This document shows positions 11,835 through 51,332 of a stretch of 64,000 nt of DNA, one piece after another. Within the stretch, counting starts at the first letter, position 1, and every line of letters starts with the position of its first letter. A program made the translations under genes and the position numbers. The notes beneath the pieces were generated by a model that saw nothing but the letters and a program-made list of their open reading frames with translations, did not search any database and was not told the DNA's origin. Source of the DNA: Streptomyces rapamycinicus NRRL 5491 (GTDB lineage Bacteria; Actinomycetota; Actinomycetes; Streptomycetales; Streptomycetaceae); the NCBI RefSeq assembly GCF_024298965.1, contig NZ_CP085193.1, positions 11,532,001 to 11,596,000 on the forward strand. The letters run 5' to 3'.

Positions 11835-11964
11835 CCGCGGCCGGGCCTTGGCCGAACGGTCAAAGCCACGGGTGGGTCTTTGGCCGATGCGTGCACCTCC
11901 CCGCCCGCTCCCTTCCGCATCATCAGGGGCCGTACAGCGCGGCGGCGCGGACAAGGGAGGCAAT

Positions 11965-31685: not shown

Positions 31686-32593
31686 GCCGGTCGGGCTCCT
31701 CGGTCGGGGAGAAGGGCGGCCGCGTGGCGGAGAAGCGCGTGCAGGGCCGGGTTGTCATTGTTCTTGCGCCACACGAGGTTGAGTTCTACCGGCTCCGGAG
31801 TGGTCAACTCCACCGATTTGAAGACGGTGTTGGGGTAGCGCGGCCGGGCGGCGGTCTCCGGGACCAGGGCCACTCCCCAGCCGCCGTTCACCAGCGCCAG
31901 GATGGTGTGGACCTGGCTCAGGTACTGGGCGAAGACCGGGGTGGCGTGTGCGGCCCGGAAGATGCTGATGAGCAGCTCGTTGAAGTAGCGCGCCTCGATG
32001 GGCGAGTACATCAGCAGTTCCTGCCCGTCGAAGTCGGCCACCTTCAGCGGCCCGTCGCCCGCCGCCAGCGGATGTCCGGTCGGCAGGGCGGCCAGCAGCC
32101 GCTCCCGGGCCGCGGGCCGGGAGCGCAGATCCGGTCCGGTGACCGCGGGCCGCACCAGACCCAGGTCCAGGCTCTGCTCGGTGACGGCCTCCAGCTGGTC
32201 ACGGGTGACCATCTCGCGCAGGGTGATCTCCGCGCCCGGCATGGCCGCACGGGCGATCTCCAGCAGTGTGCCCAGCACGGAGTGGGCACTGGCCGCCGTG
32301 AAGCCGATGGCGATGCTCCCCGCCTCGCCCGTGGCCACCTGCTGGGCGGCGAGCGCGGCGTGCTCGGACTGGCGCAGGATGCGGCGGGCCTCGGTGAGGA
32401 AGGCGCGTCCCGCGGGGGTGAGCCGCACCGAGCGGTTGGTGCGCTCCAGCAACTGGACCCGCAACTCGGTCTCCAGCAGCTGGATCTGGCGGCTCAGCGG
32501 CGGCTGGGTCATCTTCAGCCGCTCCGCGGCCCGGGTGAAATGCAGCTCCTCGGCGACCGTCACAAAGCTGGTGAGTTGCATGAGCGTGAACAA
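31682..32593 (-). CDS. LysR family transcriptional regulator
   Basis: A 303-residue regulator: an N-terminal winged HTH (LTSFVTVAEELHFTRAAERLKMTQPPLSRQIQLLETELRVQLLERTNRSVRLTPAGRAFL) and a LysR substrate-binding domain (IAIGFTAASAHSVLG, LDLGLVRPAV, VALVPETAA). It is divergent from the talarate/galactarate dehydratase gene across a 152-bp spacer, so it is the likely aldarate-responsive activator. The TTG start at 32593 has GGGAG upstream; ATG 32581 is an alternative. Confidence 0.9.
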   Translation of the reverse strand: MFTLMQLTSFVTVAEELHFTRAAERLKMTQPPLSRQIQLLETELRVQLLERTNRSVRLTPAGRAFLTEARRILRQSEHAALAAQQVATGEAGSIAIGFTAASAHSVLGTLLEIARAAMPGAEITLREMVTRDQLEAVTEQSLDLGLVRPAVTGPDLRSRPAARERLLAALPTGHPLAAGDGPLKVADFDGQELLMYSPIEARYFNELLISIFRAAHATPVFAQYLSQVHTILALVNGGWGVALVPETAARPRYPNTVFKSVELTTPEPVELNLVWRKNNDNPALHALLRHAAALLPDRGARPA

Positions 32594-32745
32594 CGATGCT
32601 CTCCCGGTATCAACGCATGCCAATTTTAAGTTAGACGTAGATCGTCCGGCGACCTTAGCTTGCAAAGGAGCTCGCCGGCCGCCCGGGGGCGGTTTCGACG
32701 ACATCCACTCGCCCCGCATACGGGCCCCACACACAGGGACAACAC

Positions 32746-33924
32746 GTGGTGACCACATCGCATACGGCAACGCACGCCGCGCAGCAGGCAGGTGAGGCGA
32801 CCCTCGACCGGGTCTCCTGGATCCGAGTGTCCTCGGTCGTCCTTCCCCTGGCCACACCCATCAGCGACGCCAAGGTGCTCACCGGGCGCCAGAAGCCGAT
32901 GACGGAAGTGGCCTTCCTCTTCGTCGAACTCGCCACCGAGGAGGGACACGAGGGCATCGGCTTCAGCTACTCCAAGCGCGCCGGAGGGCCCGGCCAGTTC
33001 GCCCACGCCCAGGAGATCGCGCCCACCCTCCTCGGCGAGGACCCCAGCGACATCGCCAAGATCTGGACGAAACTGGTGTGGGCCGGCGCCTCCGTGGGCC
33101 GCAGCGGACTGTCCACCCAGGCGATCGCGGCCTTCGACATCGCCCTGTGGGACCTCAAGGCCAAGCGGGCCGGGCTGCCGCTGGCCAAGCTGCTGGGCGC
33201 ACACCGCGACACCGTCCGCTGCTACAACACCTCCGGTGGCTTTCTGCACACGCCGACCGAGGAACTGCTGGAGAACGCGACGGCGTCCCTGGCCAGCGGA
33301 ATCGGCGGCATCAAGATCAAGGTGGGCCAGCCGGACGGCAAGGAGGACCTGTGCCGGCTGACCGCCGTACGGGAGCACCTGGGCGACGGCGTACCGCTCA
33401 TGGTGGACGCCAATCAGCAGTGGGACCGGCCCACCGCACAGCGCATGGGGCGCGCCTTCGAGGAGTTCGGCCTGGTCTGGATCGAGGAGCCGCTGGACGC
33501 CTATGACGCGGCCGGCCACGCGGCCCTCGCCGCCTCGCTGGACACCTCCGTGGCCACCGGGGAGATGCTGGCCAGCGTGGCCGAACACTGGGAGCTGATA
33601 CGCCACAACGCGGCGGACATCATCCAGCCCGACGCACCGCGCATCGGCGGCATCACCCAGTTCCTGAAGCTGGCCACTCTCGCCGAGCAGCACCATCTGC
33701 AACTCGCCCCGCACTTCGCGATGGAGATCCACCTCCATCTCGCGGCCGCCTATCCGCAGGAGCCGTGGGTGGAGCACTTCGACTGGCTGGAGCCGCTGTT
33801 CAACGAGCGGCTGGAGATCCGCGACGGCCGGATGCGGGTGTCCGCACGGCCCGGGCTCGGCATCACCCTCAGCGAGCAGGCCCGCGCCTGGACGGGTGCC
33901 AAGGCGGAGTTCGGGGCCCGATAA
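32746..33924 (+). CDS. L-talarate/galactarate dehydratase (enolase superfamily)
   Basis: A 392-residue mandelate-racemase-subgroup enzyme that removes water from an aldarate to give a 5-keto-4-deoxy acid. Active-site residues: K190 and K192 in GGIKIKVGQ, D221 (VDANQQW), E247 (WIEEP), E273 (TGEML) and H323 (APHFAMEIH). All six are offset by exactly five from the Salmonella talarate/galactarate dehydratase set (K195, K197, D226, E252, E278, H328), strong support for that family. AGGGA precedes GTG 32746. It is followed by a GntP permease and glucarate dehydratase. Confidence 0.87.
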   Translation: MVTTSHTATHAAQQAGEATLDRVSWIRVSSVVLPLATPISDAKVLTGRQKPMTEVAFLFVELATEEGHEGIGFSYSKRAGGPGQFAHAQEIAPTLLGEDPSDIAKIWTKLVWAGASVGRSGLSTQAIAAFDIALWDLKAKRAGLPLAKLLGAHRDTVRCYNTSGGFLHTPTEELLENATASLASGIGGIKIKVGQPDGKEDLCRLTAVREHLGDGVPLMVDANQQWDRPTAQRMGRAFEEFGLVWIEEPLDAYDAAGHAALAASLDTSVATGEMLASVAEHWELIRHNAADIIQPDAPRIGGITQFLKLATLAEQHHLQLAPHFAMEIHLHLAAAYPQEPWVEHFDWLEPLFNERLEIRDGRMRVSARPGLGITLSEQARAWTGAKAEFGAR

Positions 33925-33968
33925 GCCCGTTTCGCACCGCGCCGGTCACTGATCCCTGGCCGTACCCA

Positions 33969-33997
33969 TTGACCGGTGGTGTTCACCCCTCTAGCCT
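33969..33997 (+). promoter_or_regulatory. Probable promoter for gntP-gudD
   Basis: TTGACC (33969-33974) and TAGCCT (33992-33997) are separated by 17 bp. The spacer contains GGTG-GTGTT-CACC, a small inverted repeat that could be an operator. An AT-rich patch (CATATATAGA) follows. The transporter and glucarate dehydratase can thus be expressed apart from the first dehydratase. Confidence 0.6.
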
Positions 33998-34104
33998 CCA
34001 TCTGCATATATAGACGGAGTGCATGTACGTGGACTCCTTGGCCCGTCTGGCAGCCGTTCGAGTCTCCGGCTCAACCGCCCGCAGTTCAAAGGGGAACTGA
34101 AGAC

Positions 34105-35442
34105 ATGCCTCTAGTCGTCGTCGGAATCAGCGTGGCGATCCTGCTGTTCCTCATGACCAAGCTGAAGCTCAACGGCTTCATCGCCCTGCTCCTCGTGGCC
34201 GTCGGCGTCGCGCTGGTGCAGGGGGTCGAGATGGAGAAGATCCCCGATGTCCTCGGAGAGGGCGTCGGGGGTCAGATCGGCGACACCATGCTCGTCGTCG
34301 GTCTGGGCGCCATGGTCGGCCGGGTCATGGGCGACTGCGGCGCGGCCCAGCGCATAGCCAACACCCTCATCGACACCTTCGGACTGCGCTGGGTCCAGGT
34401 GGCGATGGTGGTCACCGCCATGCTCATCGGCGTGACCATGTTCTACGAGGTGGCCTTCGTCATCATCGTGCCGGTGGCGTTCACCATCGTCCGGGTCACC
34501 CGCAAGAACCTGCTGTGGGTCGGCCTTCCGATGTCCATCGCCCTGTCCACCATGCACAGCTTCCTGCCGCCCCACCCCGGGCCCACCGCGGTGGCCTCGA
34601 CCTTCAACGCCTCCGTCGGCCTGACCCTGTTCTACGGGCTGTTCATCGCCGTTCCGGCCGGTGCGCTGATCGCCCTGGTGTGGCCGCGCCTTCCGTTCGT
34701 CCGCCGGATGGACCCCGAGATCCCCAAGGGCCTGGTCAGCGAGCGCACCTTCACCGAGGAGGAGATGCCGGGCCTCGGCTGGTCGCTGTCGGTGGCCCTG
34801 GTCCCGGTGGTGCTGATCGCCGGCGCCGCGGTGACCGACATGGCCGTGTCCGGCTCCAGCCCGGTCCTGCACTTCGTCACCTTCATCGGATCCGCGCCGA
34901 TCGCGCTGCTGCTGACCCTGCTGCTGGCGGTGTGGGCGTTCGGCCCGCGGATCGGCCGCAGCCTGTCCGAGGTCAGCGCCTCCTGCAACTCCGCCGCCCA
35001 GGCGATGGCGATGATCCTGCTGGTCATCGGGGCCGGTGGCGCGTTCAAGCAGGTCCTGGTCGAGGGTGGGATATCCGACTACATCAAGGACCTCACCGAC
35101 GACTGGTCCATCTCGCCGATCATCCTCGCCTGGCTCATCGCCGTCGTCCTGCGGGTGGCGCTCGGATCCGCCACGGTCGCCGTGGTCACCGCCGCCGGTG
35201 TGGTGCAGCCGCTCCTGGAGAACAGCGGGGTCCACCCCGAGCTGATGGTCCTCGCCGTCTCCTGCGGATCGATCGCCTTCAGCCATGTGAACGACCCCGG
35301 CTTCTGGATGTTCAAGGAGTACTTCAACCTCTCCGTCATCGACGCCATCAAGGCGCGCACCACCTACACCACCGTGCTCGCGGTCCTCGGCCTCGGCGGC
35401 GTGCTGGCCGTCGAGGCCGCCCTCGAAGCACTCAATGTCTGA
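34105..35442 (+). CDS. GntP family gluconate/aldarate:H+ symporter
   Basis: A 445-residue inner-membrane permease of the GntP (Gnt-II) family, with 12 or more hydrophobic segments. It has family blocks [50 protein letters not shown] and [20 protein letters not shown]. Family members import gluconate or related sugar acids with protons. Flanked by two aldarate dehydratases, it most likely brings in glucarate, galactarate or talarate. ATG 34105 begins at the first membrane helix. Confidence 0.92.
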
Positions 35443-35495
35443 CACTCGAGGTCCGACACTCAAGGTCTGACCGCCCCCGACCCAAGGACGCCACG

Positions 35496-36824
35496 ATGAG
35501 CCAGCAGACCGTCACCTCGTTCTCCGTCTACCCGGTCGCCGGCCGGGACAGCATGGAGCTGAACCTCTCCGGTGCCCACGGCCCCTACTTCACCCGCAAC
35601 GTGGTGGTCCTCGAGGACTCCGAGGGCCGTACCGGACTGGGCGAGGTGCCCGGCGGTGAGAAGATCACCCAGACGCTGCGGGACGCCGAATCCCTCGTCG
35701 TCGGGGCGCGGGTGGGCGACTACAAGCGGGTGCTGCGCGAGATCGGGCAGCGGTTCGGCGACCGCGACGCCGGGGGCCGGGGCACCCAGACCTTCGATCT
35801 GCGCACCACCGTGCACGCCGTCACCGCCGTCGAATCGGCCATGCTGGACCTGCTGGGACAGCATCTGGAGGTGCCCGTCGCGGCGCTCCTGGGCGACGGG
35901 CAGCAGCGCGACTCGGTACGGGTCCTGGGCTATCTGTTCTACGTCGGCGACCCCGACCGGACCGATCTGGAGTACGTCCGGGAACCCGGCGCCGACGCCG
36001 AGTGGTACCGCATCCGCCACGAGGAGGCGCTGACCCCCGAGGCGATCGTCCGCCAGGCCGAGGCCACCTACGACCTCTACGGCTTCGCGGACTTCAAGCT
36101 CAAGGGCGGGGTCCTGGAGGGAAACGAGGAGGTCAAGGCGGTACGGGCGCTCAAGGAGCGGTTCCCCGAGGCCCGTATCACCCTCGACCCCAACGGCGCC
36201 TGGTCGCTGCGCGAGGCGATCGAACTGTGCCGGCCGCTGCTCGGCACGCTCGCCTACGCCGAGGACCCGTGCGGCGCCGAGGACGGCTACTCCGGCCGGG
36301 AGATCCTGGCCGAGTTCCGGCGCGCCACCGGGCTGCCCACGGCCACCAACATGATCGCCACGGACTGGCGGCAGATGACCCACGCGCTGGCGCTGCAGTC
36401 CGTCTCCATCCCGCTGGCCGACCCCCACTTCTGGACCATGCAGGGGTCGGTACGGGTGGCCCAGCTCTGCCATGAGATGGGGCTGACCTGGGGCTGCCAC
36501 TCCAACAACCACTTCGACATCTCCCTGGCCATGGTGGCCCACTGCGGAGCCGCCGCCCCGGGCGCGTACAACGCCCTGGACACCCACTGGATCTGGCAGG
36601 AGGGGCTGGAGCGGCTGACCGTCGAGCCGCCGCGGATCGCCGGTGGTGAGATCGCCATCCCGGACGCCCCCGGGCTGGGGATCCGGCTCGACCGCGACCG
36701 GCTCCTCGCCGCCCACGCCCTCTACCAGGAGAAGGCGCTGGGGGCGCGGGACGACGCGGTCGGCATGCGCTACCTCATTCCGGGCTGGACCTTCGACAAC
36801 AAGCGTCCCTGCCTGGTGCGCTAG
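35496..36824 (+). CDS. gudD: Glucarate dehydratase
   Basis: A 442-residue enolase-superfamily dehydratase converting D-glucarate (and L-idarate) to 5-keto-4-deoxyglucarate. Catalytic and metal residues: K201 and K203 in DFKLKGG, D231 (DPNGAW), E256 (AEDPCG), N285 ([12 protein letters not shown]), D309 and H335 ([11 protein letters not shown]). These are offset by four from the E. coli enzyme (K207, D235, E260, N289, D313, H339). The C-terminal [15 protein letters not shown] is typical. It is probably co-transcribed with gntP, 53 bp upstream. The downstream kdgD/aldolase step is not in this window. Confidence 0.93.
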
Positions 36825-40531: not shown

Positions 40532-41452
40532 TCACCGCCGCATATGGTCTATCTCACAGCCGCCTCCCGGGCGCTCCTGGCTGAGGACGTCCACCAGTCG
40601 CTGGAGCGCCGGGTTGGGGCTGTCCGGGCTCCAGCAGGCGTGGAGGGTGACGGAGTGGGCGTCGGCCGGGGCCAGTTCGCGGTAGCGCACGCCGTGGACG
40701 CCCATCGCCATGATCGAGCGGGGGATCAGGGCGCAGCCCAGGCCCGCGCGGACCAGGGCGAGCATGGTGGGGACCTGGGAGGTCAACTGGCTGACGGCGT
40801 AGCGGTCCACGCCGATCATCGCGGCGCAGATGTCGTGCAGATAGCGGGAGCCCTCGGGGCTGTAACCGATGTAGTCGTCGGCCGCGTCGGTCAGGGCGAC
40901 GGGGGTGTCATCGTGGTCATGGGCCAGTGGATGGCCGGAGGGGACCGCGAGGACGAGGTCCTCGGAGTGGACCAGGAGCGAGGCGTACCCCTCGGGGATG
41001 GGCGGCCGCACCAGACCCAGGTCGATGCGCAGCTCCGAAAGGGCGGCGAACTGATCGGGGCTGACCAGTTCGGTCAACTCGACGGTGACATCGGGGAGAT
41101 GCCGCTTCACCAGGTCCAGCACGTCGGCCAGGATGGCGTACGCGCCGATCGCGGTGAAGGCCAGCCGCAGGGTGCCGGTGCGGCCCTCGGCGGCGCGGCG
41201 GGTGGCGGTCGGCGCCGCGTCCAGCAGGGCCAGCACCCGGTGGCAGTGGTCGAGGAAGACCCGGCCCGCGGCGGTGATCCGGGCGCCCCGTCCGGTGCGC
41301 TCGAACAGGACGACGTCCAGGGCGCGTTCCAGCGCCTGGATCTGACGGGTCAGCGGGGGCTGGGTCATGTTGAGGCGGGCGGCGGCACGGCCGAAGTGCT
41401 GCTCCTCCGCCACCGCCACGAAGCCGCGGAGCTGCTGCAGGGAGAGGTTCAT
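40532..41452 (-). CDS. LysR family transcriptional regulator
   Basis: A 306-residue regulator with an N-terminal HTH (LSLQQLRGFVAVAEEQHFGRAAARLNMTQPPLTRQIQALERALDVVLFERTGRGARITAAGRVFL) and the usual effector domain (LRLAFTAIGAYAILADVL, IDLGLVRPPI, GLGCALIP). It is divergent, across 115 bp, from the six-gene dehydrogenase/enolase/ABC operon, so it is that operon's probable activator. It is similar in layout to the LysR at 31682, which faces the other enolase-superfamily locus. Confidence 0.9.
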   Translation of the reverse strand: MNLSLQQLRGFVAVAEEQHFGRAAARLNMTQPPLTRQIQALERALDVVLFERTGRGARITAAGRVFLDHCHRVLALLDAAPTATRRAAEGRTGTLRLAFTAIGAYAILADVLDLVKRHLPDVTVELTELVSPDQFAALSELRIDLGLVRPPIPEGYASLLVHSEDLVLAVPSGHPLAHDHDDTPVALTDAADDYIGYSPEGSRYLHDICAAMIGVDRYAVSQLTSQVPTMLALVRAGLGCALIPRSIMAMGVHGVRYRELAPADAHSVTLHACWSPDSPNPALQRLVDVLSQERPGGGCEIDHMRR

Positions 41453-41485
41453 GCCCTCACGGTATGGGGCGATGCGAAAGTGGGC

Positions 41486-41527
41486 TTGGACGGGCATGGC
41501 GGCGCGCCCCTACGGTCATGACGACCG
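41486..41527 (+). promoter_or_regulatory. Candidate promoter and operator of the six-gene operon
   Basis: TTGGAC (41486-41491) and TACGGT (41511-41516) are 19 bp apart, slightly long. The inverted repeat CGGTC-ATGAC-GACCG (41513-41527) overlaps the -10 position. Either could be involved in LysR control; support is modest. Confidence 0.35.
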
Positions 41528-41567
41528 CGCAGGGCAGATCCGCACCGATCCCGTCCGAGGAGCCAGG

Positions 41568-42554
41568 TTGTCCAGACTCGCCGTCGCCATGACCCCCCAG
41601 CGTGCCGCCGATGTGATCAGCGCCGAGGCACGGCGGCTGATGGCGGAACGCTACGAGGTGAGCTGGGCCGATGAGCCGCTGACCGCGGACGTGGTGGCCC
41701 GGCTCGCCGTCGGCAGCGATGTGCTGCTGACCAGCTGGGGCACACCCCCTCTGGACCGGGCGATCTGGGCCGGTGGCGATGGCCCCCGGGTGGTGGCCCA
41801 CGCCGCCGGGACGGTGAAGAAGCTCATCGACCGCGAGGTGCTCGACCAGGGCGTCGCGGTCTTCTCGGCCGCCGGGCGGATCGCCTGGTCCGTGGGGGAG
41901 TACTGCCTGGCGGCGATGCTCACCCTGGCCCGCAGGCTGCCGCTGTTCGACACCGCGATACGCGCCGGCGGCTGGAAGCAGAGCGGCTTCCGGGGCGGTG
42001 AACTCACCGGCCGGCGGGTGGGCGTCCTCGGTGCGAGCTCCACGGCCCGCGCCCTGATCACCCTGCTCAGGCCGTTCCGCTGCGATGTGGTGGTCTACGA
42101 CCCGTATCTGGACCAGGAGGCGGCCGCCGCGCTGGGGGTGCGGACCGGCACGCTGGAGGAGGCCCTCGGCTGCCCGTTCGTCTCCGTCCATGTGCCCGAT
42201 CTCCCCGACACCCGGGGTCTGGTGAGTGCCCGGCTCATCGAGCGGATCCCCGACCACGCCGTGGTCGTCAACTCCGCCCGGGGACCGGCCGTCGACCAGG
42301 GCGCGCTGCTTGAACAGGTTTTGGCGGGGCGGCTGTTCGCCGCGCTGGACGTCTTCGACCCCGAGCCGCCGCGGCTCGGCGAGTCCGTGCTGAGCTGCCC
42401 GAATCTGCTGCTCACCCCGCATATCGCCGGGGACACCGTGGACGGGCATCTGGCGCTGGCCGGATATGTGATGGCGGATGTGGCCGACTGGCTGGACAAG
42501 GGTGTCCGCGGTCCGAGCTTCGTGGACCCCGCCTCCTGGCCCATCGCCGCCTGA
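41568..42554 (+). CDS. D-isomer-specific 2-hydroxyacid dehydrogenase family protein
   Basis: A 328-residue NAD(P)-dependent oxidoreductase, first gene of the operon. Catalytic triad: R238 (NSARGP), E266 (DVFDPEP) and H285 (LLTPHIAGD). The nucleotide loop reads VGVLGASSTARAL; the usual GxGxxG is degenerate, with the third Gly replaced. GAGGAG lies 6 bp before TTG 41568, which sets the start. It probably oxidises or reduces a sugar-derived 2-hydroxy/2-keto acid produced or used by the neighbouring enolase-superfamily enzyme. Confidence 0.85.
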   Translation: MSRLAVAMTPQRAADVISAEARRLMAERYEVSWADEPLTADVVARLAVGSDVLLTSWGTPPLDRAIWAGGDGPRVVAHAAGTVKKLIDREVLDQGVAVFSAAGRIAWSVGEYCLAAMLTLARRLPLFDTAIRAGGWKQSGFRGGELTGRRVGVLGASSTARALITLLRPFRCDVVVYDPYLDQEAAAALGVRTGTLEEALGCPFVSVHVPDLPDTRGLVSARLIERIPDHAVVVNSARGPAVDQGALLEQVLAGRLFAALDVFDPEPPRLGESVLSCPNLLLTPHIAGDTVDGHLALAGYVMADVADWLDKGVRGPSFVDPASWPIAA

Positions 42555-42618
42555 CCGGCCCCCGCGCTCCGCAGCCGGCCGTTCGCGTCATCGACCTCAT
42601 GTCAGGAGTCACTTCACC

Positions 42619-43749
42619 ATGTCGCGTATCACGGCGGTCGAGGTCTTCCCCGTGGCCGTGCCCTTCGCCCGGCGGTTCGTACTGGGCAGCGGCGCCGTCG
42701 GCACCCCCGATCAGGCCGGGTCGGTCATCTTCGTCAAGCTGACCACCGAGGACGGGGTGGTCGGCTGGGGCGAGCAGCGCGCCCTGCCCAGCTGGAGCTA
42801 TGAGACCGCCGAGACGATCGCCGTCGTCATCAAGCGCCATCTGGCCCCCATCCTCCTCGAACTCACCCCGTTCGACGTGGAGTTGTTCCACGCCCGGGCG
42901 AGCCGCCTGCTGAGCCCGTCGGTGTCCAACGGCTTTCCGTTCGCCCGCGCCGCGGTGGACATCGCCCTGCACGACGCGGCCGGCAAACTGGCCGGGCTGC
43001 CGGTCCACGCCCTGCTGGGCGGCAAGCTCCGGGACACCGTGCCGCTCTGCTCGGCCATCGGGGTGGGCGAGCCCGCCGCCGTCCGCGAGCACGCCCAGCA
43101 GTCCTCGGACTACACCGCCTACAAGGTGAAGATCGGCGGCGACCCCGCGGCGGACACCGCGGCCATCACCGCTGTCGCGGAGGTCGCCGCGGGCAAACCC
43201 CTCTGGCTGGACGCCAATCAGTCCTACCGGCCGACCGCCCTCACCCGCCTGATGGGCGCCGTGCGCGAGGTGCCGCACCTGACGTGCGTGGAGCAGCCCG
43301 TGCCGGGCACCGACACCCTCGGCCTGCGCCGGGTGCGGGACCTGATCGGCCTGCCGGTGGCCATCGACGAGGGCAGCTTCACCGCCCAGGACCTCGCCCG
43401 CACCCTGCGCCTGGACGCCGCCGACCTGGTGGTCGTCAAGATCTGCAAATCCGGCGGGCTGCGCAACGCCCTGAAGACCGCCCAGGTCGCACTGGCGAGC
43501 GGCCTTGAGGTGCTGGCCAGCGGGCTGACCGACTGCGGCATCGGCTTCGCGGCCGCGCTGCACCTCTTCAGCCAGCTGGAACTGGCCCTGCCCGCCGAAC
43601 TGAACGGACCGGAGCTGCTGGCCGACCTCTACGTGGAGAACCTGGACATCGTCGCGGCCACCGCCACCGTCCCCTCCGGCCCCGGGCTCGGCGTCGAGGT
43701 CGACGAGGAACGCATCCGCGCCGAATCCCTGGACATGGCCTGGTCCTGA
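42619..43749 (+). CDS. Enolase superfamily enzyme, muconate-lactonizing (MLE) subgroup, unknown substrate
   Basis: A 376-residue TIM-barrel enzyme. Base pair K169/K171 in YKVKIGG, metal ligands D198 (LDANQS), E225 (VEQP) and D250 (IDEG), and the opposite-face lysine K274 in VVVKICKSGG put it in the MLE subgroup (racemases, epimerases, cycloisomerases) rather than among His-dependent aldarate dehydratases. Likely chemistry is proton abstraction alpha to a carboxylate; the substrate is not predictable. AGGAG precedes ATG 42619. It lies 64 bp after the dehydrogenase gene and 38 bp before the binding-protein gene, so it belongs to the same operon. Confidence 0.85.
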   Translation: MSRITAVEVFPVAVPFARRFVLGSGAVGTPDQAGSVIFVKLTTEDGVVGWGEQRALPSWSYETAETIAVVIKRHLAPILLELTPFDVELFHARASRLLSPSVSNGFPFARAAVDIALHDAAGKLAGLPVHALLGGKLRDTVPLCSAIGVGEPAAVREHAQQSSDYTAYKVKIGGDPAADTAAITAVAEVAAGKPLWLDANQSYRPTALTRLMGAVREVPHLTCVEQPVPGTDTLGLRRVRDLIGLPVAIDEGSFTAQDLARTLRLDAADLVVVKICKSGGLRNALKTAQVALASGLEVLASGLTDCGIGFAAALHLFSQLELALPAELNGPELLADLYVENLDIVAATATVPSGPGLGVEVDEERIRAESLDMAWS

Positions 43750-43787
43750 ACATCCGCGCACCCAGACCCAGCAGCGAGGAGACGACG

Positions 43788-45101
43788 ATGTCTTCCAGCT
43801 TTTCCCGGCGCGCCCTGCTCAAGGGGGCGACCCTCGGCGGACTCGCCACCACGGGAGCCCTCAGCGGCTGCTCCTCCGGTCCGCCGCCCTCCACGGCCAC
43901 CTGGTCCATGTGGTCCAGCAGCCCGGAGGAGAACCGGGTCTGGGCCGACTTCGGACACTATGTCGAGCGGCGCATGCACATCAGATCGTCCTCGACCCTC
44001 ACCCCCTCCGACGGCTACCCCACCAAACTCGACCTGCAGCTCGTCAGCGGAACGGCCGGCATGGTCACCGCCCTGAACGGCTGGCTGATCCCCACCTACG
44101 CCTCCCGCGGCGCGCACCGGCCGCTGGACGCTCTCATCGCCGCCGACCCCGACTTCGACCTCGACGACTTCTACCCCGCCATCCGGTCCATCTCCTCGTT
44201 CGCCGGCCACACCTACGCCATCGGCTTCGACGTGGCACCGACCGTGCTCTACTACAACAGGACACTGCTGGAGCGGAACGGTGTCGATCCGCCGTCCCCG
44301 ACCGAGCCCATGAGCTGGGACACCTTCCGGGAGCTGGCCGTCGAGCTGAGCAAGCCGACGGACCAGTACGGCTTCACCTGCGCCCCGACCATCGACGACC
44401 TGGTGTCCTGGATCTACTGCGCCGGTGGCGACGTCCTCGACGGGGACCGTGACACCAGCCCCCTGGACGCCCCCGAGGCTCTGGAGGCGATCCACTACGT
44501 GGTGGAGCTGTTCGTCAAGGACCGGGTCACCCCGCCGATCGACAATCTGGTCGCCCAGAACGCCTCCGGCACCGCCCTGGCCAACTTCCTCCAGGGCAAC
44601 GTGGCATTCATGCAGAACGGCCCGTGGCAGGTGCTCAATGTCCGCAAGGCGCCCTTCACATGGGACATCGTGCCCTTCCCCGCGGGACCGGCCGGATCCA
44701 CACCGCGGGTCTCGGGCTCCAGCTTCGCCATCCCCTCGGGCGTCAAGGACGACGACCTCGACCTGGCGTGGCGGCTGCTGAAGACCCTCACCAGCACGGG
44801 CGCGCTCAACATCTACGCACGGGCCGGGCGCAACAACCCCGCGCGGCTCTCCGCCGCGAGCGCCTTCGAACCGCCGCCCGCCAACCTCGGCATCGTCCAG
44901 CGGATCCTGAAGGGCGAGGTCGCCGGCGGCCATCCCTTCAACGTCACCACCAACTGGAACCGCGTCCGGCTGCTGCTGGGCCAGGAACTGCCCCGGGCCT
45001 TCCTCGGCCAGGTGAGCGTCCGCGACGCGATCGACGGTGTGATGCCACGGCTGAACGCCCTGATGCGCCAGCACCGGGACGCCGTCCGCCAGGCCACCTG
45101 A
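43788..45101 (+). CDS. ABC importer solute-binding lipoprotein (Tat-exported, CUT1 type)
   Basis: A 437-residue extracytoplasmic binding protein. The N-terminus FSRRALLKGATLGGL is a twin-arginine signal, followed by the lipobox LSGC, so it is exported folded and lipid-anchored. The body matches family-1 sugar-binding proteins: GMVTALNGWLIP, APTVLYYNRTLLERNGVDPP, MSWDTFRELAVELSKPT, FLQGNVAFMQNGPWQV. Tat export is less usual for this class and may indicate folding in the cytoplasm. Two permease genes follow at once; no ATPase gene is present. Confidence 0.88.
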   Translation: MSSSFSRRALLKGATLGGLATTGALSGCSSGPPPSTATWSMWSSSPEENRVWADFGHYVERRMHIRSSSTLTPSDGYPTKLDLQLVSGTAGMVTALNGWLIPTYASRGAHRPLDALIAADPDFDLDDFYPAIRSISSFAGHTYAIGFDVAPTVLYYNRTLLERNGVDPPSPTEPMSWDTFRELAVELSKPTDQYGFTCAPTIDDLVSWIYCAGGDVLDGDRDTSPLDAPEALEAIHYVVELFVKDRVTPPIDNLVAQNASGTALANFLQGNVAFMQNGPWQVLNVRKAPFTWDIVPFPAGPAGSTPRVSGSSFAIPSGVKDDDLDLAWRLLKTLTSTGALNIYARAGRNNPARLSAASAFEPPPANLGIVQRILKGEVAGGHPFNVTTNWNRVRLLLGQELPRAFLGQVSVRDAIDGVMPRLNALMRQHRDAVRQAT

Positions 45102-45112
45102 GGAGGATCACG

Positions 45113-46066
45113 ATGGCTGTCGAAACCCCCGCCGCGGCGACCGCGGCCCCACGGCGTACCCCGCGCGGCCCGCTGCGCGGCCCCCGGTTCGGGCGGAACG
45201 GCTCGGAGACGCTCGCCGCCTGGCTGTTCCTGCTGCCGAGCCTGGCCGGATTCCTGATCTTCACCGCCGGTCCCGTGGTCGCGGCCGGGGTGATCTCGCT
45301 GCTGGACTGGAACCTGTTCAGCCCGCCCCACTTCACCGGGCTGGACAACTTCGCCCGGCTCGGCCCGGACACCACCTTCTGGTCGGCGCTCGGCAACACC
45401 GCGTACTTCACCTTCGTCAGTGTGCCGCTGACGCTGCTGGTCAGCCTGGGCCTGGCGCTACTGCTCAACCAGGGGCTGCGGCGCATGGCGGTGTTCCGGT
45501 CGCTGCTCCTGCTGCCCTACGCGACGATCACCGTGGCGGTGGCCTTCGTCTGGGTCTGGCTCTACATCCCGCACGACGGGCTGATCAACGCGGTGCTCGG
45601 CGTCTTCGGAATAGACGGCCCTGCCTGGCTGATCTCGGACGACTGGGCCATGCCCGCCCTCATCCTGATGAGCGTCTGGAAGAGCTTCGGCTTCGGCATG
45701 GTGATCTTCCTCGCCGGGCTGCAGGCCATTCCACAGCAGCTCTACGAGGCGGCCAGGGTGGACGGTGCCTCGCCCTGGCGGACCTTCCGCGCGGTGACGC
45801 TCCCCCTGCTGTCGCCCTCGGTGTTCTTCACCGTGGTCACCTCGATCATCGGCTCCTTCCAGGTCTTCGACCAGGCGCTGGTGATGACGGACGGCGGGCC
45901 GGGATCCAGCACCACCACGCTGGTGATGTACATCTACCGGACCGGATTCCAGAACTACGAGCAGGGCTACGCGGCCGCCCAATCGATGGTGCTGTTCGCC
46001 TTCATCGTCGTCATCACCGCGGCGCAGTTCCTGCTCCAGCGGAGGCTGGTGCACTATGACATCTGA
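45113..46066 (+). CDS. ABC sugar transporter permease (MalF type)
   Basis: A 317-residue membrane component with six hydrophobic segments. The ATPase-contacting EAA loop is EAARVDGASPWRTFRAVTLPLLSPS. Residues before 35 are cytoplasmic and Ala/Pro/Arg-rich. GAGGAGG lies before ATG 45113, 11 bp after the binding-protein stop. In streptomycetes such importers often use the shared ATPase MsiK encoded elsewhere, which would explain the missing ATPase gene. Confidence 0.93.
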   Translation: MAVETPAAATAAPRRTPRGPLRGPRFGRNGSETLAAWLFLLPSLAGFLIFTAGPVVAAGVISLLDWNLFSPPHFTGLDNFARLGPDTTFWSALGNTAYFTFVSVPLTLLVSLGLALLLNQGLRRMAVFRSLLLLPYATITVAVAFVWVWLYIPHDGLINAVLGVFGIDGPAWLISDDWAMPALILMSVWKSFGFGMVIFLAGLQAIPQQLYEAARVDGASPWRTFRAVTLPLLSPSVFFTVVTSIIGSFQVFDQALVMTDGGPGSSTTTLVMYIYRTGFQNYEQGYAAAQSMVLFAFIVVITAAQFLLQRRLVHYDI

Positions 46067-46916
46067 CGTGCCCGCGCTCGTGGCCCTCCGCCGCTCGCCC
46101 GTGGCGGCCCGGCGGCTGCTGGTGTTCACCTGTTTCCTGGTCACCGCGGTCACCCTCACCCCCATCGTGATGATGGTGCTGGTGGCCTTCCAGTCAGACG
46201 CCGAGTCGATGGCGGCACGGCCGTCGTTCTGGCCCGGCAGCTGGCACCCGGAGAACATCGGCCGCGCCTTCGACCTCGTCCCGCTGGGCCGCTATCTGCT
46301 GAACACCGTCTTCTTCGCCGGTGGTACGGCGCTCCTGGAGACGGTCACCGCGGCGCTGGCCGCGTACGCCTTCGCCCGGCTGCGCTTCCGGGGCCGGAGC
46401 GTGCTGTTCGGCGTCTATCTGACCACCTTGATGATCCCCTCGCAGGTCACGCTGATCCCGCAGTTCATCCTGGTGGCGAAGTTGCACGGGGTGGACACCT
46501 GGCCCGGGATGATCCTGCCGCACGCCTTCACCGCGCTCGGGGTGTTCCTGCTCCGCCAGTTCTTCCTGGGCGTGCCCCGCGACTACGAGGAGGCCGCCCG
46601 CCTCGACGGCGCGAACCGCTGGCAGACGTTCATCCGGGTGATCGTCCCGCTGGCCATCCCGGCCATCGCCACCCTGGCGGTGTTCAAGTTCATCAGCCAG
46701 TGGAACAACCTGCTCTGGCCGCTGGTGATATCCAACAGCGACTCCACCAGGACCGCGGCCGTCGGGCTCCAGGTGTTCCAGTCCACCAACGGCACCCAGT
46801 GGAATCTGCTGCTGATGGCGGCCGCCATCACCACCGTGCCGCTCATCCTGCTCTTCTTCCTCACCCAGCGCTGGTTCGTCAAAGGCATCACCATGAGCGG
46901 GCTCGGAGGCCGCTGA
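46056..46916 (+). CDS. ABC sugar transporter permease (MalG type)
   Basis: A 286-residue partner permease with six hydrophobic segments. Its EAA loop is EEAARLDGANRWQTFIRVIVPLAIPAIA, and the typical C-terminal FFLTQRWFVKGITMSGLGG ending of CUT1 permeases is present. It overlaps the first permease gene by 11 bp, so translation is coupled. Confidence 0.93.
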   Translation: MTSDVPALVALRRSPVAARRLLVFTCFLVTAVTLTPIVMMVLVAFQSDAESMAARPSFWPGSWHPENIGRAFDLVPLGRYLLNTVFFAGGTALLETVTAALAAYAFARLRFRGRSVLFGVYLTTLMIPSQVTLIPQFILVAKLHGVDTWPGMILPHAFTALGVFLLRQFFLGVPRDYEEAARLDGANRWQTFIRVIVPLAIPAIATLAVFKFISQWNNLLWPLVISNSDSTRTAAVGLQVFQSTNGTQWNLLLMAAAITTVPLILLFFLTQRWFVKGITMSGLGGR

Positions 46917-46920
46917 CACC

Positions 46921-47715
46921 ATGACATTTCTCTGGTCCGTGTTCACCAAACCGTGGTCCACGCTGCCCGGCGACACCCTGGGCCGGCTGGTGTCCGGCCT
47001 CGGCTTCACCGGCGTGGAGGTCCCGGTCCGGGACACCGCGTACGTCACCCCGGGCGAAGCGGGGCGGCTGCTGCCGGAGTTCACCGCGCGGCTGCGGGCG
47101 GAGGGCGTCGAGGTGATCAGCGTCGCGAGCGACCTCCGCGAACCCGTCTTCGCGGCGTGCCGGGAGGCGGGCGTGCCGATGATCCGGGTCATGGCCGAAC
47201 TGGGCCCCGACGGCTATGCCGCCTCGGTCCGGCGGGCACGGCGACGGCTGGAGGACGCGGCGCCGCTCGCCGAGGGGTATGGCGTCCAGGTCGGGGTGCA
47301 GCCGCACCACGGGCGCTATGTGTCCTCCGCACTGGGGGTGCTGGACCTCCTCGACGGCCTGCCGGTCCAGCACTTCCGGGTGATCTGGGACGCCGCCCAT
47401 GACGCGCTGGCGGGCGACGATCCGCGGGTCACGCTGCCGCTGGTCGCCGAGCGGCTCGGCATCGTCAACCTCAAGAACGCCATCCAGGTGCGCACCGAAC
47501 CGGCCGGTGAGGCCGTCGGCGGGCACTGGAAACCCTGGTTCGTGCCGGGCCCCGAAGGGCTGGCCGACTGGTCGGCGGCGCTCGGCCGGCTGGCGGAGCT
47601 CGGCTTCACGGGCCCGGTGTGTCTGTCCGGGCAGTACTCCGACCCCGGTGTCCCGGTCGAGAAGCGCCTGGTGGCGGATCTGGCGGCGGCACGCGGTGCG
47701 GCGGGCGCCGCATGA
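46921..47715 (+). CDS. Sugar phosphate isomerase/epimerase-like TIM barrel protein
   Basis: A 264-residue xylose-isomerase-like TIM barrel (AP endonuclease 2 family). Barrel strands and metal-binding-like blocks: LGFTGVEVPVRD, VEVISVASDL, VQVGVQPHHGRYV, FRVIWDAAHDAL, LGIVNLKNAIQV, and the C-terminal GFTGPVCLSGQYSD. It begins 4 bp after the second permease, as the last gene of the operon. The reaction is unknown; families of this fold include isomerases, epimerases and dehydratases of sugars and inositols. Confidence 0.8.
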   Translation: MTFLWSVFTKPWSTLPGDTLGRLVSGLGFTGVEVPVRDTAYVTPGEAGRLLPEFTARLRAEGVEVISVASDLREPVFAACREAGVPMIRVMAELGPDGYAASVRRARRRLEDAAPLAEGYGVQVGVQPHHGRYVSSALGVLDLLDGLPVQHFRVIWDAAHDALAGDDPRVTLPLVAERLGIVNLKNAIQVRTEPAGEAVGGHWKPWFVPGPEGLADWSAALGRLAELGFTGPVCLSGQYSDPGVPVEKRLVADLAAARGAAGAA

Positions 47716-47815: not shown

Positions 47816-48745
47816 CTACGGCAGGCCGCCCGGCTTCGGCCCCCGGTAACCCGGACGGGACGAGGCGTCGATGCCCACCTCGTAGCGGATACCGGGGTGC
47901 AGGGTGTTGCCGCCGACCCGGGCGCCGGTCGAGTGGTAGGCGAGGCCGATGGCGTGGTGGGTGGGCGCGGCGAACTCATTGCCGGTGATGGTGGCGTTCC
48001 GTACGTCCTCGAACATCAGCGCCTGGGAAGCGCGGAGCGTCTCGCAGTGGTTGCCCCTGATGGTGAAGTCGCCGGTGGTGCCGTGGCCGTCACCCTCGCC
48101 GTCGTTGGGGCCCTCCGCCATCAGACACATGTTGTCGATGTCCTCGCAGCGGTTGTTCTCGATGCGGACACGGTGGCTGGTCGGGGTGTCGCTGGCGAAG
48201 GTCTGCATGCAGTCGGCGTGCCGGCCATGGCCGTTGTCGGTGTCGCGGACGGTGTTGTACGCGATGGTCAGATCGTCGCCGAAGAACCGGATGCCGTCGC
48301 CGTCCCCGCCCCTCGGGCCGATCACGGTGTTGTTCCGCACGGTGACGCGGTGGCCGGTCAGCTCGATCCCGGGCGCCTCCGGCCGGAGGGACCGGAACCC
48401 GTCCACGATCACATCGTCGGCCTCGATGGTGATGCCGTCCACCGCTTCCCCGCCCCCGGCGTAGGCGATCGGGTGCTCCCGGCTCCCGCCCTTGGTGATG
48501 ACCAGCCGCTGCCGGGACAGATCGCCGTCGAAGCAGACGGTGTCCCCCGGCTTCGCCCGGCGCGCCGCCTCCCGCGGGGTGGCGGCACGCAGGGTGCAGC
48601 GCTCGGTCCCCTTCCCGGTGGTGAGCGACGCCGTCGGCCCGGCGGCGTCCCGCCCCTGGGGCCATGACGGACGCGCCAGGGCGGCCAGGAGGGCGAGGAC
48701 CGAGACGGCGAGGAAGCCGAGGACGAGTCTCCAAGTGATCCGCAT
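47816..48745 (-). CDS. Secreted right-handed parallel beta-helix protein
   Basis: A 309-residue exported protein: an N-terminal hydrophobic segment (LVLGFLAVSVLALLAALA) followed by parallel beta-helix rungs (VTVRNNTVIGPRGGDGDGIRF, LTIAYNTVRDTDN, VRIENNRCEDIDNMCL, FTIRGNHCETL, ATITGNEFAAP). This fold is common in polysaccharide lyases and related carbohydrate-binding enzymes, but I see no decisive catalytic set. The basic N-terminus fits a signal anchor. It is monocistronic and divergent from the GH92 gene. Confidence 0.8.
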   Translation of the reverse strand: MRITWRLVLGFLAVSVLALLAALARPSWPQGRDAAGPTASLTTGKGTERCTLRAATPREAARRAKPGDTVCFDGDLSRQRLVITKGGSREHPIAYAGGGEAVDGITIEADDVIVDGFRSLRPEAPGIELTGHRVTVRNNTVIGPRGGDGDGIRFFGDDLTIAYNTVRDTDNGHGRHADCMQTFASDTPTSHRVRIENNRCEDIDNMCLMAEGPNDGEGDGHGTTGDFTIRGNHCETLRASQALMFEDVRNATITGNEFAAPTHHAIGLAYHSTGARVGGNTLHPGIRYEVGIDASSRPGYRGPKPGGLP

Positions 48746-48875
48746 GGCGGGAACCGTAGAGCGGGACCCCGGGGACCGGTCCCGCCGTCAGCCGTGCGCC
48801 GCTGGCGTCCAGTTCACTCCGGCGTCACCATACGCCCCTAGGTTCACTCCGACACATGGAAGGGCGTGATCCCCG

Positions 48876-51332
48876 ATGGAGACGCACAGAGCGCAGCGAA
48901 AGAGACTCAGGTGCCGGTCGGCGCTGGTCGGCGGGGGAGTGGCGGTGGCGGTCGGCGCCCTGCTCGCCCCGCTCGTCGAGGCCCCCGCGGCGAGCGCGGC
49001 GCCACGGGCCGACGAGGTACGTCACCCCGTCGACCACGTGGACCCGCTGATCGGCTCCGCGGGCGGCGGCAACACCTACCCGGGCGCCACCCTGCCGTTC
49101 GGCATGATCGCCTGGTCCCCGACCAGCACCACCGGCGACCAGACCAACACCGCGGCGGCCAACGGCTATTCGTACGACACCACCCGGGTCCGGGGCTTCA
49201 GCCTCACCCATGTCAACGGCGCGGGCTGCCACCCCGGAGCCGCGGGCGATGTGCCGATCATGCCGTTCGTGGGCGAGGTCGACAGCTCTCCCACCGCCGA
49301 CACCAAGGACCAGAAGTACGCCGCCACCTTCTCGCACGAGAAGGAGAAGGCCGAGCCCGGCCACTACCGGGTGGGGCTCGACTCGGGCGCGGCCGCCGAT
49401 CTCGCGGTGAGCGAGCGGGCCGGTGTCGCCGACTTCTCCTTCCCCCGGAACGCCCCGGCCCGACTGCTGTTCCGCACCTCCAACTCGCTCAACGGCAGCG
49501 AGAACGCCCACATCGAGATCGACCGCCGGCGGCACAAGGTGACCGGCTGGGTGCTCACCGGGGCGTTCTGCGGACGGCGCGCCAACGGCGGCGAGAACAA
49601 CCGCAAGACCTACTACCGCCTCTACTTCAGCGCGTCGTTCGACCGTGCCTTCTCCACCGTGGGCACCTGGGAGAACGACCGGCTCTCACCCGGTGCCACC
49701 ACCGCCGACGGCGGCGAGGGCTATCTCACCGGCGCCGACCGGGCCGGGCGCGGCTCCGGCGGATACGTCGGCTTCGACACCGTGCGCGACAACGATGTCC
49801 GGATGCGGCTCGGCATCTCGTACGTCTCCCTCGCGGGCGCCGAGGCCAATCTCCGCACCGAGATAGCGCCCCGGGCGAGCGTCGCCGACGTGGCCGCCGC
49901 GGGACGGGCCGCCTGGGACCGCCGGCTGCGCGCCATCCGCGTCAGCGGCGGCAGTGAGCCGCGCCGCGCCGCGTTCTACACCGCCCTCTACCACGCGCTC
50001 CAGCAGCCCAACCTGATCAGCGACGCCGACGGCCGCTACCCGGGCATGGACGGCACACCGCACCGGATCGAGCGCGGGCAGACGGCGCAGTACAGCAACT
50101 TCTCCGGCTGGGACCAGTACCGTGCCCAGGTGCAGCTGCTCGCCCTGCTCCAGCCCGAGGTCGCGGGGGACTTCGCCCAGTCGCTGCTCAACTTCGCCCG
50201 GCAGAACGGCGGGGTGTGGGACCGCTGGGTGCACATCAGCGGCGCCACCCATGTGATGACCGGCGACCCCTCCGCCGCCACACTCGCCACCTTCTACGCC
50301 ATGGGGGTGCGGAACTTCGACGCCAAGGGCGCCTTCGACTCCCTCTACCGCCAGGCCACCGTCCCCCACCCCGACGGGCTCTCCGACAAGGGCTGCCCGG
50401 GGCAGTGCGAGGGCCAGCGCCCGGGCCTCGCCCAGTACCTGGAATCCCGGTACGCCGCACAGGACGCCTGCCACTGCTGGGGCGGCGCCGCGGAGACCCT
50501 GGAGGACTCCGTCGCCGATGACGCGCTCGCCCGCTGGGCCCGGCTGCTCGGCCGCACGAAGGAGGCCGACGAACTCGGCGCGCGCGGCGGCTACTGGCGC
50601 AATGTGTTCAACCCCCGGGCCACCGGCACGGCGGGCTACATCCAGGCCAGGAACCGGGACGGCTCCTGGGTGACCCCCTTCGACCCGGCGTCCGACCGGG
50701 GCTTCGCCCAGGGCAGCGCGGCCACGTACACCTGGATGGTGCCGCAGGACGTCCAGGGGCTCGCCGACGCCATGGGCGGCCGCGACAAGGCGGCGGCCCG
50801 GCTGGACGGCTTCTTCCACAAGCCCGACGGCTCCTGGTCGGTCCGCGGCGGCGACCCGCTCCGCTACGACCCCACCAACGAACCCGGCATCCACGCCCCC
50901 TGGCTCTACAACGCGCTCGGGCAGCCCTGGAAGACCCAGGAGACGGTGCGCCAGATCGTCACCACCGTGTACGGCACCGGGCCGAAGGGGCTGCCCGGCA
51001 ATGACGACCTGGGCACCATGTCCGCGTGGTACGTGTTCGCGGCGCTCGGCCTCTATCCGCAGGCCCCGGGGCGCGCCGAGGCACTGCTCACCGGTCCGCT
51101 CTTCCCGCGCGCGGTGATCGCCCCGGCGGGGCAGCGGCGCGCCCTGACCATCGACGCCCCGGACGCGTCCGACACCCACCCCTATGTGCACGCGGTGCGG
51201 GTGAACGGCAGGCCGCACGACACCTCCTGGCTCGACGGCTCCGTCGTGCGCCGGGGCGGTTCGCTCTCCTTCGACCTGGCCGACCGGCCCGACACCAGCT
51301 GGGCCACCGACCCGGGCGGGCTGCCCCGCTGA
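48876..51332 (+). CDS. Secreted GH92 family alpha-mannosidase
   Basis: An 818-residue exo-alpha-mannosidase of glycoside hydrolase family 92, exported through an N-terminal signal (ALVGGGVAVAVGALLAPLVEAPAASAA). The family start VDPLIGSAGGGNTYPGATLPFGM is followed by the catalytic domain. The general-acid region is PTNEPGIHAPWLYNALG, and the acidic pair acting as base is in GNDDLGTMSAWYVFAALGLYP. GH92 enzymes need calcium and remove alpha-mannose from mannans or fungal/yeast N-glycans. Two direct copies of GTTCACTCCG lie 30 bp apart just upstream (48812 and 48842) and may be regulatory. Confidence 0.92.
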   Translation: METHRAQRKRLRCRSALVGGGVAVAVGALLAPLVEAPAASAAPRADEVRHPVDHVDPLIGSAGGGNTYPGATLPFGMIAWSPTSTTGDQTNTAAANGYSYDTTRVRGFSLTHVNGAGCHPGAAGDVPIMPFVGEVDSSPTADTKDQKYAATFSHEKEKAEPGHYRVGLDSGAAADLAVSERAGVADFSFPRNAPARLLFRTSNSLNGSENAHIEIDRRRHKVTGWVLTGAFCGRRANGGENNRKTYYRLYFSASFDRAFSTVGTWENDRLSPGATTADGGEGYLTGADRAGRGSGGYVGFDTVRDNDVRMRLGISYVSLAGAEANLRTEIAPRASVADVAAAGRAAWDRRLRAIRVSGGSEPRRAAFYTALYHALQQPNLISDADGRYPGMDGTPHRIERGQTAQYSNFSGWDQYRAQVQLLALLQPEVAGDFAQSLLNFARQNGGVWDRWVHISGATHVMTGDPSAATLATFYAMGVRNFDAKGAFDSLYRQATVPHPDGLSDKGCPGQCEGQRPGLAQYLESRYAAQDACHCWGGAAETLEDSVADDALARWARLLGRTKEADELGARGGYWRNVFNPRATGTAGYIQARNRDGSWVTPFDPASDRGFAQGSAATYTWMVPQDVQGLADAMGGRDKAAARLDGFFHKPDGSWSVRGGDPLRYDPTNEPGIHAPWLYNALGQPWKTQETVRQIVTTVYGTGPKGLPGNDDLGTMSAWYVFAALGLYPQAPGRAEALLTGPLFPRAVIAPAGQRRALTIDAPDASDTHPYVHAVRVNGRPHDTSWLDGSVVRRGGSLSFDLADRPDTSWATDPGGLPR

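Follow-up and report, generated by a model that had tools for sequence, protein, structure and literature searches.

The operon and its encoded proteins

We analysed a 64,000-nucleotide stretch of the Streptomyces rapamycinicus NRRL 5491 genome (12.47 Mb, single contig NZ_CP085193.1), which covers positions 11,532,001-11,596,000 and is hereafter called the window. The system of interest consists of a divergent LysR gene and six closely packed genes, encoding a D-2-hydroxyacid dehydrogenase (HADH), an MLE-type enolase, a Tat lipoprotein solute-binding protein (SBP), two CUT1 permeases and a TIM barrel:

40532-41452, minus strand: LysR1, LysR-family regulator (PF00126, PF03466; alternative ATG at 41497)
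41462-41516, plus strand: divergent promoter/operator, GTAT-N6-AT-N12-TTGGAC-N19-TANNNT, one of three sites in the genome
41568-42554, plus strand: HADH, with a TTG start behind GAGGAGCC (PF02826, 144.8 bits)
42619-43749, plus strand: MLE-subgroup enolase-superfamily enzyme, ATG start at 42619
43788-45101, plus strand: SBP, a Tat lipoprotein and family-1 solute-binding protein (PF01547/PF13416)
45113-46066, plus strand: ABC permease of UgpA/MalF type (CUT1; PF00528; best NCBIfam match UgpA, under its cut-off)
46056-46916, plus strand: ABC permease of UgpE/MalG type (CUT1; PF00528; best NCBIfam match UgpE, under its cut-off)
46921-47715, plus strand: xylose-isomerase-like TIM barrel whose metal site is degenerate (Q127, D157, N183, S/T236)

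The genes of the six-gene run are spaced by 64, 38, 11, -11 and 4 bp, from which we infer a single transcript. An earlier sequence-only reading of this DNA had given the same genes in the same order, with gaps of -11 to 64 bp, all of which was reproduced. The run ends at the TIM-barrel gene because the next gene, at 47816-48745, lies on the opposite strand and converges on it; a simple scan returned no sigma-70-type promoter, and no terminator 3' of the TIM-barrel gene. A contig scan, in which the best 80 of 154 relatives were kept, led to 77 fetched loci, and the presence of each gene at each locus was called by identity cut-offs. Homologues of the MLE enzyme were present at 63 of these loci, of HADH at 41, of the TIM barrel at 37, of LysR1 at 37 and of the SBP at 31. 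The clustering exceeds chance: LysR, HADH, MLE and TIM genes occur together at 35 of the 77 loci and all six operon genes at 29.

None of the operon proteins reached a listed NCBIfam cut-off. The MLE enzyme carries K169, K171, D198, E225, D250 and K274 (numbered from the ATG at 42619), and in an alignment of the window protein with 22 of the 63 retained homologues (23 rows) all are invariant except E225, conserved in at least 90% of rows. The KxK of strand 2, the Lys of strand 6, three carboxylate Mg ligands and the fold place it in the MLE subgroup. These residues, their conservation and the structural comparison agree with the earlier assignment to an MLE-type, not His-dependent, enolase. 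It shares 24-32% identity with the subgroup members in the structural table. A role in muconate or chloroaromatic catabolism was rejected: the muconate/chloromuconate family TIGR02534 gave 187.9 bits, far under its cut-off of 334.95, and the seven genes include none of an aromatic pathway. Three homologues from Bryobacterales/Acidobacteria metagenome-assembled genomes (MAGs; L052, L062 and L068) have WGM where the other rows have WGE and bear an N-terminal extension resembling a Tat signal; two of the extensions contain NRRHFAQ and DRRAFAQ. Export would be unusual for an enzyme of the enolase superfamily. The MLE query has 19 matches in the whole genome, of which one lies just past the window end. 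A further enolase in the window, at 17054-18361 and preceded by a 309-aa open reading frame (ORF), resembles MenC/N-succinylamino-acid racemases (TIGR01928, 296 bits, cut-off 201).

HADH has the NAD-binding domain (PF02826) and the catalytic Arg, Glu and His of D-2-hydroxyacid dehydrogenases; the GxGxxG motif is replaced by GASSTARA, which, like the three catalytic positions, is conserved in at least 97% of 42 sequences. The last gene had been read as a TIM-barrel isomerase, of which the fold stands (xylose-isomerase-like, AP_endonuc_2) and the metal site does not, three of the four canonical ligands being replaced; across 29 rows Q127, D157 and N183 are invariant and position 236 is Ser or Thr. 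The canonical ligands are Glu, Asp, His/Gln and Glu, whose positions were mapped through an alignment to the TIM barrel of locus L048 and to IolE.

The SBP carries SRRALLK and LSGC. In an alignment of the window protein with 20 of its 31 orthologues, the twin arginines R7 and R8 do not vary, and the lipobox cysteine C28 is nearly invariant. Its best PDB profile match is 6rjy, an arabino-oligosaccharide-binding protein. Arabino-oligosaccharide and maltose-type proteins top the list, and this is too general for naming a ligand. An SBP with two permeases makes up a CUT1 importer. No ABC ATPase is encoded among the seven genes, and none was searched for elsewhere in the genome; a shared ATPase encoded elsewhere, as in streptomycetes, may serve this importer. 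The reading of the operon as a unit of uptake and conversion is supported. The seven genes do not form the full pathway that had been suggested: they include no aldolase, KdgD or aldehyde dehydrogenase, so the operon product would have to pass to genes located elsewhere.

A promoter signature shared with aldarate genes

The intergenic regions between LysR and HADH, aligned for the window and 36 loci, contain GTAT-N6-AT and TTGGAC in 37 cases out of 37, with TANNNT at 19 bp in 35 and at 18 bp in two. This conserved divergent promoter supports the claim that the LysR protein regulates the operon. The LysR1 start is most likely 41452, since the longer reading from the ATG at 41497 overlaps the conserved operator. 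In Microlunatus parietis (L041) the signature (~6956-7010) still precedes HADH, and the LysR gene lies ~2.2 kb off behind other ORFs.

We then scanned 27 operon-bearing genomes with a strict signature, GTAT-N6-AT-N12-TTRGAC-N18/19-TANNNT, and its reversed pattern as control. All 27 contained it, with 40 sites in total against none for the control; by base composition, ~0.01 sites would be expected by chance over the 242 Mb searched. Of the 40, 27 are the site of the operon itself (the window; 24 genomes recognised by intergenic sequence match; G769 and G121 by position). Two of the 13 further sites lie in the window genome, two in G748 and G749, and nine were fetched with their surroundings.

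The three sites of the S. rapamycinicus genome precede the operon, a TalGalDh-GntP-GudD cluster and a LysR3-KdgD pair. The second of these is a complete-looking aldarate cluster (31682-36824) directly upstream of the operon:

31682-32581, minus strand: LysR2, 39% identical to LysR1
32607-32661, plus strand: second copy of the signature, TTAGAC variant, preceding the neighbouring aldarate cluster
32746-33924, plus strand: L-talarate/galactarate dehydratase, TalGalDh (NF047820, 709 bits, cut-off 500; most upstream start)
34105-35442, plus strand: GntP-family gluconate-type permease (TIGR00791, 481 bits, cut-off 293; start chosen at MPLVVVG)
35496-36824, plus strand: glucarate dehydratase GudD (TIGR03247, 788 bits, under the cut-off of 829; start chosen at MSQQTVTSF)

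LysR3, a 44% identical paralogue of LysR1, adjoins KdgD 2.1 Mb away, and their promoter contains GGTAT-N6-AT and TTGGAC. This KdgD (407 bits, cut-off 374) is the only one of nine matches in the genome to exceed the cut-off. Beside it lies an aldehyde dehydrogenase (PF00171) which Pfam and NCBIfam did not identify as a ketoglutarate-semialdehyde enzyme (93.6 against 770 bits).

The same association is found in other genera. All nine fetched second sites (eight in Kribbella, one in Pseudonocardia; 13 kb fetched) adjoin a LysR gene together with KdgD, GudD and TalGalDh, whose identities are 61-64%, 66-69% and 75-79%, respectively; KdgD passes the NCBIfam cut-off at two of the nine. A TctC gene, once also TctA, adjoins the fetched aldarate cluster. 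The KdgD, Kribbella and Pseudonocardia sites all read TTGGAC. In G748 and G749 the further site is the TalGalDh promoter, judged by sequence and by spacing to the operon. LysR2 and LysR3 are the sole other LysR proteins of the genome at E<=1e-40, and in a LysR tree of 28 rows the 15 operon LysRs form one clade (support 100/97) beside them, the junction to LysR2 and LysR3 being not strong (92/81).

Other patterns were tried. A window scan for GTAT-N6-ATRC gave two sites, the operon promoter and 32607 in the LysR2-TalGalDh gap. The short box GGTATNNNNNNATRCNAA, shaped on both, has no other occurrence in the genome (reversed control 0); for wide use it was discarded as a specific signature, giving 43 sites in 39 of 297 genomes against 35 reversed-control sites. 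The composite GGTAT-N6-AT-N3-AA-N4..12-TTGGAC has two occurrences in the genome, at the operon and KdgD promoters (control 0); an earlier composite pattern, with an offset unfit for other genera, matched in 8 of 25 genomes and was replaced by the strict signature.

Because its promoter is shared with aldarate genes, the operon's substrate field narrows to D-glucarate/galactarate catabolism, in keeping with the sugar-acid theme of the sequence-only reading. The operon is likely to belong to the aldarate regulon. The candidates are then compounds convertible to aldarates or to 5-keto-4-deoxyglucarate, a short list whose members are purchasable or can be synthesised.

Distribution and related clusters

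The LysR-HADH-MLE-TIM core occurs in Streptomyces, Kribbella, Pseudonocardia, Kibdelosporangium, Microlunatus and Occultella and in a Propionibacteriaceae MAG; the loci of Occultella and Microlunatus have an SBP and permeases that are non-orthologous or non-adjacent. HADH is missing beside 22 MLE homologues, from one Paenibacillus, a MAG labelled Actinomycetota (L071) and 20 further MAGs, mostly Bryobacterales/Acidobacteria. Among the matches kept, the closest MLE proteins are 98% identical and come from the Streptomyces violaceusniger group, in which the operon and the aldarate cluster adjoin each other. The operon is rare in Streptomycetaceae: in 394 sampled genomes a TIM-barrel match above 70% identity was found only in the window's own genome and in G121, and the matches at E<=0.001, present in 275 genomes, are mostly weak. 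At one locus (L047) a GudD-type gene (TIGR03247, 742 bits, under the cut-off of 829) starts ~10 bp after the TIM-barrel gene, and a pyruvate-carboxylase-type gene comes next.

A second type of cluster, in G370 and G221, comprises an MLE homologue (MLE2), two HADHs, CUT1 proteins, a TIM barrel (TIM2) and a PL7-type lyase adjoining MLE2, and G592 groups HADH, SDR, ThuA, TIM2, a His-type enolase and CUT1 permeases. The combination of a CUT1 importer with an enolase, a hydroxyacid dehydrogenase and such a TIM barrel thus recurs. Loci L101 (7354-11347) and L102 (7278-11282) encode a PL7-type alginate lyase along with MLE2 and two hydroxyacid dehydrogenases, with TIM2 divergent beside a LacI-type gene. 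Between HADH and the permeases, L101 also encodes on the minus strand (11347-12585) a 413-aa protein, 82% identical in G221, that matches nothing in Pfam at E 1e-4. The gene context of the distant TIM-barrel homologues in G665 and G482 gave no further clue.

Downstream of the operon (window positions 47816-51332) lie genes for a beta-helix protein that looks secreted and for an enzyme of family GH92, conserved among the fetched loci only in the S. violaceusniger group. The beta-helix protein (47816-48745) has no significant PDB match, its best being to alginate lyases at E 0.036.

A candidate branch of the aldarate pathway

The operon is real and conserved, and it has no described function; a literature search of open-licence PMC papers found no description, consistent with the earlier view of an undescribed system. 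We propose, with somewhat better than even confidence, that it forms a branch of the actinobacterial D-glucarate/galactarate (aldarate) pathway, serving uptake and conversion. LysR1 would act as an activator answering to an acid of the pathway. The CUT1 system would import a sugar-acid derivative (a lactone or a conjugate) not carried by GntP or TctC/TctA: since aldarate clusters adjoin these transporters, the CUT1 cargo is probably another compound. HADH and the TIM barrel would perform redox or isomerisation steps ahead of the MLE enzyme. Enzymes of MLE type abstract the alpha proton of a carboxylate, and an oxygen leaves or is added at the beta position. Here, K169 and K274 may remove such a proton while a leaving group bound through the beta oxygen (lactone carboxylate or ether) departs, and the product would be 5-keto-4-deoxyglucarate, the KdgD substrate, formed from glucaro- or galactaro-1,4-lactone or from a 4-O-substituted glucarate. 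This elimination is a tentative assignment, one of several possibilities.

A more specific version makes the MLE enzyme a Lys-dependent eliminase for 4-O-substituted aldarates, with a metal-free xylose-isomerase-like barrel as a further new step. The C5 proton of 4-O-methyl- or 4-O-glycosyl-D-glucarate would be removed and the substituent expelled, giving 5-keto-4-deoxyglucarate in one step; the 4-O-methylglucuronic acid of xylan, for example, could be the source. The chemistry and the CUT1 import of conjugates fit, and no sequence feature singles out that substrate; we hold this version to be highly improbable. If true, it would mean a new enolase-superfamily reaction and an entry route for blocked uronates into the aldarate pathway.

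Known systems offer partial parallels. The oxidative uronate/aldarate pathway of Agrobacterium comprises Udh, Gli, Gci, KdgD and alpha-ketoglutarate semialdehyde (alpha-KGSA) dehydrogenase, and in it Gci converts galactaro- and glucarolactone to the KdgD substrate (PMC6353982). Gci is the closest chemical model for the proposed MLE step: both systems would converge on KdgD through an enolase-superfamily enzyme able to make its substrate from a lactone. The operon differs in having no uronate dehydrogenase or lactone isomerase and an MLE-type enzyme not close to 4ggb, and HADH, the TIM barrel and CUT1 import are extras relative to the Agrobacterium pathway. GudD/TalGalDh clusters with LysR share with the operon a related LysR and the promoter signature, whereas their dehydratases match TIGR03247 or NF047820 and lie near GntP or TctC/TctA; the operon enolase is Lys-dependent and stays under both cut-offs. 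Muconate/chloromuconate cycloisomerases and N-succinylamino acid racemases have the same fold, KxK/K bases and Mg ligands, but at 24-32% identity and, for TIGR02534, 188 bits against a cut-off of 335. SCO3480, 3,6-anhydro-L-galactonate cycloisomerase, is likewise an enolase-superfamily sugar-acid cycloisomerase of Streptomyces, and it belongs to an agar pathway with an aldehyde-type dehydrogenase (PMC9706016), which sets it apart. A 3,6-anhydrogalactose cycloisomerase was rejected because no agar-pathway partner is found among the seven genes, a judgement with no direct comparison behind it.

Several points weigh against an aldarate branch: (i) no uronate dehydrogenase is encoded among the seven genes. 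(ii) The MLE enzyme scores 232 bits with the PDB profile 2p88 and 117.5 with 4ggb, and a classical Gci was rejected on these scores, 4ggb/4hpn being galactarolactone cycloisomerase. (iii) Fifteen of the 27 genomes have the operon's site alone. (iv) The KdgD clade was not found at E<=1e-80 in 14 of the 27, including the sister Streptomyces G748-G750. (v) The 360 bp before TalGalDh in S. antioxidans (L012, positions 601-960) contain no GTAT-N6-AT. (vi) GudD is confined among the fetched loci to L009-L012 and L047, and was dropped as a general operon neighbour. (vii) TTRGAC was widened after the TTAGAC site at 32607 was known, so that site is no independent test, and the Kribbella sites are mutually dependent. 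(viii) Paralogous LysRs may retain an ancestral operator while their ligands diverge, which would reflect descent and not joint control.

Alternatively, the MLE enzyme could be an epimerase or racemase whose K169 and K274 move the alpha proton, turning a rare stereoisomer into a GudD/TalGalDh substrate while HADH and the TIM barrel handle related isomers; this would still be an aldarate branch, one working by another chemistry, and we regard it as rather unlikely. It is unlikely, too, that the promoter was merely inherited, LysR1 having arisen from an aldarate LysR with its operator retained while the operon now degrades an unrelated acid. The paralogy of the three LysRs, the genomes with a single site and the complete operons in genomes where the KdgD clade was not found all fit such a history. 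Against it stand the GudD gene directly behind the TIM-barrel gene in L047, the neighbouring operon and aldarate cluster in the S. violaceusniger group, and the frequency of the KdgD clade, 13 of 27 among the genomes with the operon as opposed to 30 of 394 in the class, a contrast inflated by the many Kribbella that dominate the 27. Finally, a substrate set free by a secreted lyase, namely an unsaturated uronate or an oligo-uronide, with the MLE enzyme acting on the 4,5-double bond beside the carboxylate, would agree with the PL7-type alginate lyase (PF08787) next to MLE2 in G370 and G221 and with a pectate-lyase-like gene (PF12708) upstream of the MLE gene in Paenibacillus L048, but is quite improbable: the closely related G370 and G221 (MLE2 90% identical) count as one case, the window operon contains no lyase (the 77 loci having had no general lyase scan), and the match of the beta-helix protein to alginate lyases is not significant.

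The promoter signature can be used to find more members of the regulon. If the operon is indeed a branch of the aldarate pathway, a Lys-dependent enolase branch, instead of the usual His-dependent dehydratases, would join a pathway for plant-derived sugar acids, one of interest to glucaric acid biotechnology, and a widespread actinobacterial enolase clade would gain a function, as would a xylose-isomerase-like clade that has lost most canonical metal ligands.

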